Origin: Petasospora fabianii
Taxonomy: Eukaryota; Ascomycota; Saccharomycetes; Phaffomycetales; Wickerhamomycetaceae
Direction of reading: 5' to 3'
Assembly (NCBI GenBank): GCA_022641835.1
Contig: CP048715.1
Span: 806,001 to 870,000, forward strand
Length of the DNA: 64,000 bases
In this document: positions 23,462 to 63,699 of the stretch, piece after piece
Numbering within the stretch: position 1 is the stretch's first letter
Layout of the letters: the number at the start of each line of letters is the position of its first letter
Made by a program: the position numbers and the translations under genes
The notes under the pieces: generated by a model
What the model was told of the DNA's origin: nothing
Seen by the model: the letters and a program-made list of their open reading frames with translations, nothing else
The model's database searches: none

Positions 23462-24679
<1,218 letters not shown>

Positions 24680-26167: not shown

Positions 26168-26281
26168 GAGGGCTTGGCCGAGTGGTTAAGGCGTCAGATT
26201 TAGGTTAATAAAATTTTCTTTGAAATTTTATAAAACACTCTGATATCTACGGATGCGCGAGTTCGAATCTCGTGGTCCTCA
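26168..26281 (+). tRNA. tRNA-Leu(UAG) with intron
   Basis: A full cloverleaf with a long variable arm, as expected for Leu. Acceptor arm: GAGGGCT pairs with GGTCCTC, discriminator A at 26281. The anticodon stem is TCAGA/TCTGA and the anticodon TAG lies at 26201-26203. An intron of 33 nt (26205-26237) follows position 37, the canonical site cut by the Sen complex. The D arm (TTGGCCGAGTGG) and the T arm (GTTCGAATC) carry the A and B boxes. It reads CUA and probably other CUN codons, including CUG. Confidence 0.93.
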
Positions 26282-27722: not shown

Positions 27723-28948
27723 TGTTTGTTTGTGTGTAGGTGTCTAGGTGTATGTGTGTAAGGAGATAAGTGATGAGATGTGAGAACATGAATCTGGGGT
27801 ATGCGTCTTTATATATTTTTATTTGTGAATGTGTGCCTGTCAAATGATATGACCCATGTTAGATGGGCTGTTTTGTCATCTAAAGGTGTATGTATCTACG
27901 GGTGTGCGGCTTGCCATTAGTCTCCGGACTGTGGGAACCGGAGCGCCGGAACTTGAAAGTGACCCATTTTGACTCATGTCTTCCCCGGATTATGACGTTT
28001 TGGTGTGTGAGTCGGTAATTTAAAACTTTTTCACCTCGGCCAAGCACTGGACTGTGTGGTCTTTACTAAGCTCTTGTAGTTGATGATATCTTAATGAAAT
28101 AGTTAGTCTAATAGTTTATTAGTAGTTGTATTGGTATATTGTATAAAGTGGAAGGTCCCGGTATCGGCGGGTCCTTGGGGTTGCCCGTAAGGCCCTGCTG
28201 GGGGCAATCGCCGGAACCGCGGAGATTCGATGGGCAGCCGGAACCATGTGCCCATATGTCCCCTATACTAAAATCTTTTTGACACATTTTACCAGAGGCT
28301 GTGGCTGAAGCAATAACAAAAAATGCCGAGGCTCAACAAACCGGCCCCTTAGCCCATTTCTTTCCATGGGCCCCTACCTCCGGGGCCCCCATTTCCCTTC
28401 CGGATATCTGTTCCGTTAAGCACTGGTAACACTTAAGGCCAGGAGCTGTGGGACTCCGGGGTTGCGGGAGTGTGTCTAAGTATGTCTCTCTTTGTCTCTT
28501 TCTCTCCCCTCCATCATTTGTTTGCTATTCTGTGTGATATCCTCGGCTGTGGTTAGTACTACTTAGTTCCACGGCCCATCGCAAAAAGTCCCTGCCAACA
28601 AGTCAACATCCGAAGATCTGTCGTATCTTCTCTTTAAAGTAATTTACCAGGGGAACAAGGACCTGTACAGGGACCCATCTCAAGCACATTGGATATGAAA
28701 ATATACAACTTTCATAGTTCTCTACAGCTCTATCACATCTTTCACATCTTCCATCGCCAACAATTATAAATCGTCAAAATCCTGTTTACCATACTGTTGT
28801 ATACACACTACACCTATCACCAACATCTCCGATCTACGGCCCGCGCGCCTGCCCCACCTGGAAAAAAAAAAACTATGCTGCAGCGACGTAAACAGTGTCA
28901 GTGGTCAAATACACCACACATACCTCATCTTTCCTCACTGTCTTCACC
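27723..28948. promoter_or_regulatory. Long GC-rich divergent intergenic region with CCCCT motifs and hairpins
   Basis: A 1.2 kb region between two divergent genes, with a block at about 27900-28470 much richer in G+C than its flanks. CCCCT (stress-element core bound by Msn2/4-type factors) occurs at 28260-28264, 28345-28349, 28371-28375 and 28506-28510. Two potential hairpins are visible: CGGT/CGGCG arms at 28159-28169 pair with 28209-28219, and TGGGCA at 28231-28236 pairs with 28249-28254. A T5 run follows at about 28276-28280. It may be a complex stress promoter or hold a structured RNA. I found no match to RNase P, SRP or snRNA signatures. Confidence 0.4.
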
Positions 28949-29879
28949 ATGGCTACACTTATGGACATCAAGACACAACTTAAACGAGACTCTACAGCTT
29001 CTCTTTTAGCAGGAGGCGTCGCGAGGCATCGCTTCACGAACAGTCATCGCACCTATTGAAAGAGCCAAGATCCTTTTCCAAGTTCAAGGACCAGGTAAGG
29101 CAAGTTATAATGGAATGTTCCCAACTATTTGGAGAATGTATAAAGAAGAAGGTATAAAGGGATTATTCCGTGGTAATGGACTCAATTGTGTACGGATTTT
29201 CCCATATTCTGCGGTGCAGTTTTACGTTTATCAAAAGATCAAATTCCTATTATTGAAACCAGGAGACACTGAATTAAATAACTACCAGAGATTATTTGCC
29301 GGTGCAATGTGTGGAACGGCTTCAGTGGCGGCTACTTATCCTCTTGACCTTGTTAGAACGAGATTAAGTATTCAAACTGCTAATTTGGCCAAATTGGATA
29401 AATCAAAAGTTAAAGCTGGTGAAAAACCACCAGGTGTTTTACATCTCTTGATAAAGATCTATAAGGAGGAAGGTGGGGTTTTAGCACTATATAGAGGTGT
29501 TTGGCCAACAACTCTTGGTGTGGCTCCATATGTTGCTATCAATTTTGCAGTATATGAACAATTAAAAGAATTTGCCCCAGATTCTTCACCAATAATGAAG
29601 TTATTACTTGGTGCCACAAGTGGTGGTATCGCTCAAACCCTAACATACCCATTTGATCTTTTAAGAAGACGATTCCAAGTGTTAAGTATGGGTGGAAATG
29701 CTGGTGAATTGGGATTTCAATACAATTCTGTATGGCATGCATTGACTACTATAGTCAAGACTGAAGGTTGGAGAGGAATGTATAAAGGTCTTACTGCTAA
29801 TTTGTTCAAAGTTGTTCCATCCATGGCGGTAAGTTGGCTCTGCTATGAAGAGGTTAAGCAATGGATGGTGTCATTGTAA
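28949..29879 (+). CDS. Mitochondrial carrier (YPR011C-like), needs +1 frameshift
   Basis: Inner-membrane solute carrier family protein, closest in my recollection to S. cerevisiae YPR011C (an APS/PAPS carrier). The long frame 29115-29879 has carrier repeats 2 and 3 (PLDLVRTRL, PFDLLRRRF) but begins inside repeat 1. The missing N terminus lies in another frame starting at ATG 28949, in a good context. It runs through IKTQLKRD and LLAGGVA and stops at 29057-29059. The two frames meet at GCG-AGG-C (29021-29027): skipping the A at 29024 gives AGGVA then GIASRTVIAP, matching the family without loss or gain of residues. The shifted product would be 309 residues, near the expected length. Alternatives are a sequence error or an inactive allele. 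Confidence 0.8.
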
Positions 29880-30155: not shown

Positions 30156-30586
30156 ATGAGAGCTTCCCAGACTTTGTTCAACGCTGCTGTACGTTCCTGT
30201 TGTTATGACAATGTTTTGAATGTGTGTGGTGGGATGTGTCTATGTGTGTGTGGTTTCAGGGTGTGGGACTGACTGAACTTGCTTTCGTCTACCACCATCG
30301 GTCATCATCGCATCAACAATACCAATTCAAACGTGTCATCTTATTACTGAAACAGAATATACTAACATCTTTCAAACAGAAGAAGGGTGGTTTCGCTATC
30401 CCAATCGAGTTGACCCCATTGTTCGTTGCCATGGGTGTCGCTGTCTCCTCTGCTGTCTTCTTCTCTTACAAGAAGTTCGCTTACGATGGTACTCTCAGAC
30501 TCTCCAGAAACCCAAAGCAGTCCGCTCTCACTGAGGACTTCAACAAGATGCAGCAGGAGGAGAAGGAGCAGAAGCAGCAGGAGTAA
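30156..30586 (+). CDS. Spliced NDUFA4/B12D-type small mitochondrial membrane protein
   Basis: Exon 1 is 30156-30188 (11 codons). The intron is 30189-30379, 191 nt, with donor GTACGT, branch TACTAAC at 30360-30366 and acceptor ACAG. Exon 2 is 30380-30586, giving 79 residues. The protein has a short N terminus, a segment PIELTPLFVAMG with one membrane helix (about residues 19-40), and a charged Gln/Glu/Lys tail. The pattern resembles the NDUFA4/MLRQ-B12D family, small subunits linked to complex I or IV. Similarity is short, so the family call is moderate; the splice model is well supported by consensus sites and frame. Confidence 0.7.
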
Positions 30587-53322: not shown

Positions 53323-54789
53323 TCAGGCACCCTCGGTCTTCTTCTCTTCCTTCTCAACAGAGGTACCATCAGTGTTGATCTGGTCATCAATGAGGGCTGG
53401 CTGAGCTGGTGGCATCTTAGAGGCATTAGATCTGACGGGCTCTGGGATGTAAGACATGTCTTCCTCGTAGGTAAACTCACCAATCTGAACGTGGTCAGTA
53501 CCCATCTCCTCCTCCTCTGGTCTCAATCTGAGTCTGAGGAATGGAATTCTGTCCTGAATGAGCAAGATAATGGCAGTGACAACACAAGTCCAACCAATGA
53601 TGGCCATCATACCAGCAAGCTGGTAACCAACCTGGACGTAGTTGTGGTTGATCCAACCACCATCGATTTCAGTACCGTCAAGAGCCGCAACGTAGTCGGC
53701 GGCAAAGATACCAGTCAAAACAGAACCGATGGAGCCACCAACACCGTGGAGGGCCCAGACATCCAAACCGTCATCAATTCCAATGAGGTTCTTGACATCA
53801 ACAGCGAAGTTACAACCAATAGCAGTAACGACACCAATGATAAAGGAGGCCCAAATTGGAACGAAACCGGCAGCTGGTGTGACACCAACAAGACCGGCAA
53901 TGGCACCAGAACAGAGACCAACGGTAGTCCACTTACCACCAGATCTGAAGTAATCGACAAACATCCAAGTCAAAGCACCAGTGGCGGCGGCAACGTTGGT
54001 GTTAATGTTAGAGAACCAAGCTCTGATGGTGGAAGTACCAGCGGAACCACCGTTGAAACCGAACCAACCGAACCAAAGGAAGACAGTACCAAGGACAACG
54101 GATGTAACAGAGTGTGGCTTGTACTTTGGAAGACCCTTACCAGCGACTGGGTCGTTTCTCTTACCGAGAATCAAAGCGTAGATAAGAGCACCGTGACCGG
54201 AGGTGATATGAACTGGACCACCACCGGCATAGTCAAGACCACCGAGCTTAGCGAGCCATCCCTCTGGGTTCCATGTCCAGCAGGCAATTGGGCAGTAGAC
54301 AATGGTGACCCAGATAAAGAGGAACACCATCATTGGTCCGAGTCTAGCTCTCTCGCAAGCACCACCAACCATCAAACAACCAGTAACACAGGCAAACATA
54401 CCCTGGAAGAAGCAGAAAACGGTGTCTGGCAAAACAGAGACGACAGATGGGTTACCAAGAACGTTTCTCAAACCAATGAACTGGAGAGAACCGATAAACT
54501 CGGAGTAAACGTTGTGAGAAAAGACGAGTGAGTAACCCCAGAAGAACCACTGGAATGAGATGAGCGAAACAGCCATCATGGAAGCCCAAAGAAGGGACAA
54601 TGCGTGCTTCTTTCTAGAGAGACCGGAGTAGAGAAGACCAATACCTGGCACCATGATCCAGACAAGGATAGCAGCGACACCAACCCAAGCCATGTTGGCA
54701 AGCTCGAACTGAGAGTTCAAGTCGACTGTGAGGGAGTCACCACCGGTACCAACACCGGTGAGTCCTGTTTCTTCGGCAGCGTCAGACAT
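53323..54789 (-). CDS. MEP2: Ammonium transporter MEP2 (transceptor type)
   Basis: A 488-residue plasma-membrane ammonium channel/transporter with 11 expected membrane helices. It shares with yeast Mep2 the segments VPGIGLLYSGLSRKKHALS, CERARL and PKYKPHSVTSVVLGT, and the two pore histidines (in GGPVHITSGHG and ALHGVGGSIG). The C-terminal regulatory tail has IGEFTYEEDMSYIPEP, as in Mep2, so this is the Mep2 clade, which also signals filamentous growth in other yeasts. Several GATA motifs and a TATA box lie upstream, fitting nitrogen catabolite control. Confidence 0.96.
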   Translation of the reverse strand: MSDAAEETGLTGVGTGGDSLTVDLNSQFELANMAWVGVAAILVWIMVPGIGLLYSGLSRKKHALSLLWASMMAVSLISFQWFFWGYSLVFSHNVYSEFIGSLQFIGLRNVLGNPSVVSVLPDTVFCFFQGMFACVTGCLMVGGACERARLGPMMVFLFIWVTIVYCPIACWTWNPEGWLAKLGGLDYAGGGPVHITSGHGALIYALILGKRNDPVAGKGLPKYKPHSVTSVVLGTVFLWFGWFGFNGGSAGTSTIRAWFSNINTNVAAATGALTWMFVDYFRSGGKWTTVGLCSGAIAGLVGVTPAAGFVPIWASFIIGVVTAIGCNFAVDVKNLIGIDDGLDVWALHGVGGSIGSVLTGIFAADYVAALDGTEIDGGWINHNYVQVGYQLAGMMAIIGWTCVVTAIILLIQDRIPFLRLRLRPEEEEMGTDHVQIGEFTYEEDMSYIPEPVRSNASKMPPAQPALIDDQINTDGTSVEKEEKKTEGA

Positions 54790-62220: not shown

Positions 62221-63699
62221 TTAACTCTGTGCTGTGTTGGCCTCAGCAGCTTTTTTGGACGTGCCTCTCATCTCGAGATCCGTAACGCTTTGACCAGAGG
62301 AGCCGTCATGGCCGGATAAGAACTGAACATCAGAGCTATCAGAATATCCAGAAGCGAGCAATGGGTCAGCAGCTTCGGCCATATCATACAGATCCAATCC
62401 CATCTCCTCCGCTTCCTCAGAGACTCTCATCTTTAAACCTGGAATGAAGTTGATGATGTAACAGAGTGAAATGGTACCCACAACGGTCCAGCCGACAATG
62501 GCACAGATAGCAGCAAGCTGGTATCCCATCTGGACCCAGTGGTGGAAGATCCAGCCACCTTCAATCTCGGTAGCACCATCCATACCAGCAATTCTTGGAG
62601 ATCCAAAGACACCAACAAGGATACCACCAATCATACCACCAACACCGTGAACATTGAATGAGTGGGTAGTATCGTCGATGCCCATCCACTTGGCGCAGTC
62701 ATAGGTCAATCGACAGCAAATGGCAGTGAAGATAGCTCCGACGGCAATGGCCCAAGGCTCGAGGTAACCACAAGCTGGAGTGACAAAGACAAGACCAACA
62801 ATAATACCTTCAGCAGCGATCTGGATTGACCACTTCTTGGTGATACAGTAGTCCACCACAGTGAAAGTAAGCATGGCGAATGAGGCAGCAATCTGTGTGT
62901 TAGCCAAAATGTATGCTGTTTTTGGAGTGGTGATGGTGGTCATGGTAGCAGAGTTAAAGAACAACCATGGGCAGTAAATCAACAAGGATCCAAGGAATGT
63001 AAGAACAGGGTTGTATGGCTTATACTTGAGAGTGCCCTCTTTCCAACCTTTTCTTGGCCCAAGGAACCATGAGTAACAAAGAGATGCAACACCAGAAGCG
63101 ATATGAACTGGACCACCACCTGCGAAATCCAAGTCACCAAGATTGTAGAGCCATCCATTTGGATCCCAGACCCAGTAAGCGAATGGACAGTAACAGAGAG
63201 TACACCACAAGAAGGCAAGAACGAGGGATGGAAGCAGTCTACCTCTTTCAGCGATACCACCGAGGAAAATCTGAACGGTACAGATGGCAAAGAAGGCAGT
63301 GAAGGCAAAGTGTAGAATAGCTGGGATGGAATAACCTTCATACAATGGACCGGCTGTGATGTTTCTCAAACCACCGTACTTGAAGTTTCCGTACATGACT
63401 GAGCTCGAGGTCTCTGATGACGCTAGTGAGAAGCCAAAGAGGAACCACTGGATCGTGATAACAGATGTGACGAGGTAGGCTTGGATACAGAGTGTGAGTA
63501 AGTTCTTACCACGCATTGAACCACCGTAGAAGAGAGCGATACCTGGTGTGATCAGCAAGATACCAATAGTGGCACAAGCCACGTAGGCCATATCGGCCGG
63601 CTCGAGGGTGCTGGTTGCTCGTTAGACTCTGTTTGGGGCCCATATGATCTATTGAGAGACATTGACTTACCTGATTTGTTCTTCGTATTCTGTTGACAT
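62221..63699 (-). CDS. Second ammonium transporter (Amt/Mep family), divergent, spliced
   Basis: Exon 1 is 63699-63671 (MSTEYEEQI and two bases). The intron is 63670-63611, 60 nt, with donor GTAAGT, branch GTCTAAC and acceptor CCAG. Exon 2 is 63610-62221, giving 472 residues. The extra exon restores the extracellular N terminus before the first helix (LEPADMAYV). The pore histidines are kept (PVHIASG and NVHGVGG). It differs from MEP2: VPGIGLLYSG is replaced by TPGIALFYGG, and ACERARL by GIAERGRLL, so it is a distinct paralogue, possibly another clade. Function as an ammonium channel is inferred from the family. Confidence 0.88.

Follow-up and report, generated by a model that had tools for sequence, protein, structure and literature searches.

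The window, by which we mean the whole 64-kb stretch of DNA analysed here, has a G+C content of 45% and looks like budding-yeast nuclear DNA. Its forward strand carries a carrier gene whose coding sequence is split between two overlapping reading frames, with the heptamer GCG_A.GG_C at the point where the frames join. The features of this locus are as follows.

28949..29059, + strand: ORF1, in frame 0, from the start codon through 36 codons to the TGA at 29057-29059; residues through AGGVA match solved carriers.
29007..29009, + strand: TAG closing the +1 frame on its 5' side.
29010..29879, + strand: ORF2, in the +1 frame, the carrier remainder with three Mito_carr stretches; its first ATG is at 29115.
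29019..29039, + strand: small predicted hairpin around the heptamer, 8 bp with one mismatch, about -8.6 kcal/mol, of doubtful role.
29021..29027, + strand: GCG_A.GG_C, the candidate heptamer for a +1 shift, in register with frame 0 where homology prefers the join; the chance estimate below refers to it.

Frame 0, read from the ATG at 28949, encodes MATLMDIKTQLKRDSTASLLAGGVARHRFTNSHRTY and ends after 36 residues, which confirms the short frame-0 product proposed in an earlier, sequence-only reading of this DNA. The heptamer lies in register with this frame, so that the two frames of the carrier do meet at GCG AGG C, as had also been claimed. The remainder of the carrier occupies the +1 frame, which stays open for 289 codons, from 29010 up to a stop codon whose last base is 29879. 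On its 5' side this frame is blocked by the TAG at 29007-29009, and ORF2 is therefore unreachable, without readthrough, from any in-frame start upstream of the join. Moreover, the first ATG of ORF2 lies past the end of the PIERAK signature at 29069, so a normal carrier should not arise from ORF2 alone. Skipping one base at the heptamer yields a 309-residue carrier, in which the peptide across the join is LLAGGVAGIASR. The locus thus displays two features of yeast +1 frameshift genes, namely (i) overlapping ORFs, the second in the +1 frame without a suitable start, that jointly encode one conserved protein, and (ii) a heptamer prone to shifting, in register with frame 0, where the frames meet. 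An upstream ATG also opens a 44-codon reading frame (28875-29009, + strand, +1 frame), which overlaps the carrier start codon and ends 11 bases before the heptamer; if transcribed, it could reduce or regulate initiation at 28949.

In profile searches, the fused protein scored 257.4 bits against Mito_carr and ORF2 by itself 242.7 bits; the 36-residue ORF1 product alone matched no family in the same search. The fused protein contains three Mito_carr stretches, with PIERAK at residue 35, PLDLVR at 131, and PFDLLR at 234, all of the PX[DE]XX[RK] type that we take to be a hallmark of SLC25 carriers. Judged by these three repeats and their signatures, the gene product is a mitochondrial carrier (Mito_carr/SLC25). 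It is perhaps of the YPR011C (APS/PAPS) carrier type, a label that we use as a lead only; YPR011C is cited as a mitochondrial APS/PAPS transporter (PMC8395155; published work is cited here and below from excerpts of the papers). Searches of the genome-contig and viral-contig collections with the protein, and of the plasmid collection with 1,501 bases in distant mode, found no relatives of the carrier, and no yeast orthologue was found among these collections. An AlphaFold2 model of the fused protein, built without an alignment, was uninformative (mean pLDDT 34.1).

The position of the join was examined by fusing the two frames after each frame-0 codon and summing BLOSUM scores against segments of four solved carriers. 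These four (1okc, 4c9j, 4c9g, and 6gci, the best four of 13 matches) are all named ADP/ATP carriers, and the fused protein aligns to each of them without a gap across the join. Among the 17 open fusions the heptamer join scored highest (292), followed by joins scoring 288, 284, and 281. Since the margin of 292 over 288 is small, homology fixes the join only to within a few codons, with the heptamer preferred. The residue-for-residue alignment with the carrier family over the join, which the sequence-only reading had asserted, is hence borne out. Observed at this locus, then, are two frames, a heptamer in frame 0 where they join, and a gapless carrier once the shift is made.

The same arrangement would arise if the record held one extra base from a sequencing or assembly error, the true gene being an ordinary single-frame carrier. 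Isolated one-base errors are common in draft genomes, ORF2 is otherwise open, and no other sequence split in this way was found in the genome-contig, viral-contig, and plasmid collections. Speaking against an error, no homopolymer at the join itself exceeds two bases; within 28990-29075 only TTTT (29004) and AAA (29059) reach three or more, and joins placed at TTTT, the nearest homopolymer, match the family badly, scoring 199 and 201 vs 292. Furthermore, none of the other window genes looked at was split between frames in this way; they continue in a second frame only through recognisable introns, as judged by inspection rather than by a systematic frameshift search. As a check on quality, 27 of the 31 other window proteins or exons matched a Pfam family (E up to 0.001, or up to 0.01 in one scan, and counting Vir1p, which falls under Pfam's own cut-off); one further window gene was compared with solved structures only. 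We consider an error unlikely, while keeping it as a serious contender.

A genuine, recent loss-of-function insertion, present in this strain or allele and making the gene a pseudogene in which shifting is at most incidental, would likewise look like this: a single lesion in a gene that is otherwise open. Pseudogenes that carry a single frameshift but no stop are indeed on record in Saccharomyces cerevisiae (PMC2876123), whereas here the 289 codons of ORF2 have acquired no second lesion. We judge such a recent null allele to be distinctly unlikely.

Both of these explanations require the extra base to have produced a yeast-type heptamer at the join by chance. The bare 7-mer GCGAGGC is unremarkable, occurring once in the window on both strands against a shuffle mean of 2.72; the unusual point is its position at the frame join. 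We simulated 200,000 random one-base insertions into the 28 window coding sequences (12,483 codons) and scored five yeast-type heptamers (CTTAGGC, GCGAGGC, CTTAGTT, GCGAGTT, and GCGTGAC). A member of this set lay within two bases of the insertion in 0.049% of cases and within eight bases in 0.069%; the corresponding values were 0.002% and 0.004% for GCG-AGG-C and 0.23% and 0.59% for any NNN-AGG-C. Under the loosest definition, which leaves the P-site codon free and accepts AGG-C, AGT-T, or a stop codon of any kind in the A site, the value within two bases rose to 10.3%. In the carrier itself, 3 of the 3,648 possible single insertions give one of the five heptamers. The scored set includes GCG-AGG-C, which is built from known parts and for which we found no described natural site; dropping it would make the present case a non-hit, and the fair range is therefore 0.05% to 0.23%. 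In frame, the 28 coding sequences hold NNN-AGG-C six times and GCG-AGG-C not at all, a zero that shows no avoidance since the expected count is well below one. The value of 0.049% weighs against an error and against a recent null allele, as do the homopolymer-poor join and the otherwise open gene. Together with the lack of a long homopolymer, this low coincidence rate speaks for ribosomal frameshifting; the priors for error and mutation, however, are much higher, isolated one-base lesions being far commoner than newly recoded genes.

An unrecognised intron or an alternative start might also unite the frames without any frameshift. By inspection, six other window genes have introns near their 5' ends; the donors include GTACGT, GTATGT, and GTAAGT, and the branch sites are CTAAC. 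At the carrier, TTTTAG at 29004-29009 looks like a 3' splice site, and donor-like GTATGT (28480) and GTAAAC (28888) lie 5' of the start codon. However, the first 69 bases of ORF1 (28949 to 29017) contain no GT, and the sole CTAAC/CTAAT-like site in 28000-29250 is a CTAAT at 28108. An intron ending at 29009 would either lose the bases encoding the conserved LLAGG or fail to undo the change of frame, and the two donor-like sequences could supply at most an intron before or over the ORF1 start, with the frame change still unexplained. When GT..AG removals of at least 22 nt with acceptors up to 29500 were considered, the 25 that restore the frame were seen to start at GTCGCG or GTCATC and to delete conserved residues of the join block, and splicing was rejected. 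We accordingly regard an intron or alternative start as very improbable.

Other genes in the window were noted in passing. The polyubiquitin gene (23462-24679, + strand) has an intron after 16 codons (GTACGT...TACTAAC), and a gene for a B12D/MLRQ-type protein (30156-30586, + strand) has a 5' intron; the latter gene we take as a weak hint that the species may retain complex I and may be outside Saccharomycetaceae. Two ammonium transporter genes lie about 7 kb apart (53323-54789 and 62221-63699, both on the - strand); a short 5' intron apparently interrupts the second, whose first exon starts at 63699.

Folding of the sequence up- and downstream of the heptamer revealed no structured stimulator, with five folds giving z-scores of +0.13 to +1.39 relative to shuffles. 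The 40-base 3' flanks are poorly structured, 269 to 285 of 297 carrier windows being at least as stable, and the stimulatory RNA structure of yeast +1 genes was thus not seen here. The 21-base hairpin at 29019-29039 is matched or exceeded by 15 of 2,467 sampled 23-base coding windows and by 11 of 908 from the carrier; having been picked after the fact, it was excluded as evidence. Such structure is not required, native context having left shifting at YFS1 and LLP1 unchanged (PMC12661321). The earlier proposal of a programmed +1 frameshift holds in part, for the anatomy and for the improbability of the coincidence under random insertion, but a stimulatory structure was not found.

Codon usage was compiled for the 28 window coding sequences, with CTG read as leucine; a serine reading was dropped, as CTG sits at the Leu of a PEGLP motif in the P-type Ca-ATPase. 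GCG accounts for 42 of 928 Ala codons, AGG for 38 of 446 Arg codons, and GGC for 93 of 814 Gly codons. GCG and AGG fall further, to 4/263 and 3/89, respectively, in the four genes whose GGT share is highest. The carrier gene itself uses GCG for 4 of its 28 Ala codons (join included), so that GCG is not especially rare there, and GGC for 2 of its 29 Gly codons. The rarity of GCG and AGG fits scarce decoding in the P and A sites without proving it, codon usage being a proxy for tRNA supply. The tRNA genes in the window, namely Leu(UAG), with an intron of 33 bases (26168-26281, + strand), Ser(AGA), and Thr(TGT), do not bear on the site, none of them being tRNA-Ala(CGC), tRNA-Arg(CCU), or tRNA-Gly(GCC); the tRNA-Leu(UAG) isoacceptor has been linked to CUU-type +1 sites (PMC12719033).

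Weighing these observations, we put at about even the chances that the full-length carrier is made through +1 ribosomal frameshifting at GCG_A.GG_C; the weights given to the different readings are our judgement and not a computed posterior. In the mechanism that we envisage, a tRNA-Ala, probably a near-cognate one, would hold GCG in the P site, while the rare AGG in the A site would fill slowly. A GGC-reading tRNA-Gly could then enter one base further 3', without any re-pairing in the P site, and the shifted ribosome would continue in ORF2, whereas non-shifting ribosomes would terminate after 36 residues. That the shift occurs, how efficient it would be, and whether it would be regulated or merely tolerated are matters that we infer from the sequence.

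Several considerations count against frameshifting, among them the unstructured 3' flank and the share of GCG among the Ala codons of this carrier. A partial-yield shift early in a carrier would be costly and bring no obvious benefit. Shifting at GCG may fail in a species that bears tRNA-Ala(CGC), an argument made for the K. waltii antizyme (PMC5009743), and by analogy such a tRNA, if present in this species, may prevent the shift. Required shifting in ABP140, EST3, and YFS1 is absent in Kluyveromyces and outside Saccharomycetaceae (PMC12719033), and this species may itself be outside that family. That this yeast lineage has come to depend permanently on +1 frameshifting at GCG_A.GG_C for this carrier is a tentative proposal, to which we assign less than an even chance. 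If it were true, a natural site would unite the GCG P site, which does not re-pair, with AGG_C, the A site of the yeast heptamer with the highest measured efficiency, and carrier dosage would track AGG decoding and the levels of near-cognate tRNA-Ala.

Very few chromosomal genes of yeast depend on +1 frameshifting: OAZ1, EST3, and ABP140, with YFS1 and LLP1 added in 2025 (PMC12719033, PMC12661321). In the excerpts of the literature searched, and among the matches listed, we found neither a description of a natural GCG_A.GG_C site nor a +1-frameshifted carrier gene; the excerpts of PMC5009743 and PMC2876123 likewise yielded no such carrier. Literature linking frameshifting with YPR011C, or combining programmed frameshifting, a mitochondrial carrier, yeast, and the heptamer, was not found either among the papers searched. 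A conserved metabolic transporter would, if the reading is true, be a different type of host gene for +1 frameshifting; if confirmed, what is new would be the heptamer combination and the unexpected host, +1 recoding itself being already known.

Compared with other SLC25 mitochondrial carriers, the present protein shares the three Mito_carr stretches and the three signature motifs and differs in the frame split in its record. The shift site had been proposed to combine a known P-site codon with a known A-site sequence, and both parts are in print: GCG in the P site is known from Ty3 and OAZ1, and AGG-C in the A site from Ty1, ABP140, YFS1, and LLP1 (PMC12661321, PMC12719033). With Ty3 gag-pol (GCG_A.GU_U) and OAZ1 (GCG_U.GA_C) it shares a GCG P site without +1 re-pairing and a slow A-site event; it differs from them in having AGG then C in the A site, no recognised stimulator, and a metabolite carrier as host. 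With the CUU_A.GG_C sites of Ty1, ABP140, YFS1, and LLP1 it shares the A-site AGG and the +1 codon GGC and, as in YFS1 and LLP1, the shift site lies near the 5' end (PMC12661321). Its P site, in contrast, is GCG.

At CUU_A.GG_C the P-site tRNA re-pairs with UUA (PMC12661321), a slippage that is unavailable when the P-site codon is GCG instead of CUU. Re-pairing seems to be impossible at GCG sites, which are also not stimulated by an upstream stem-loop of the ABP140 type; for these reasons Fenton et al. prefer a model in which the A site directly accepts the +1 tRNA (PMC12661321). According to the same paper, several P-site codons had proved active with A.GU_U or A.GG_C in an earlier screen (PMC12661321), and Ivanov et al. 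cite 11 such codons together with a role for near-cognate P-site tRNA (PMC12719033). Heptamer-only efficiencies in S. cerevisiae are given as ∼40% for CUU_AGG_C, ∼15% for CUU_AGU_U, ∼10% for GCG_AGU_U, and ∼3% for GCG_UGA_C (PMC12661321), whereas a 2016 review lists 43% for CUU_AGG_C, 2% for GCG_AGU_U, and 37% for GCG_UGA_C (PMC5009743); because these sources disagree, absolute efficiencies are uncertain. We infer that shifting at GCG_A.GG_C would at least equal that at the Ty3 site. Since GCG_A.GG_C and CUU_A.GG_C differ in the P-site codon only, the two-mechanism model, which sets slippage in the P site against direct +1 acceptance in the A site, could be tested directly on a natural GCG_A.GG_C site.
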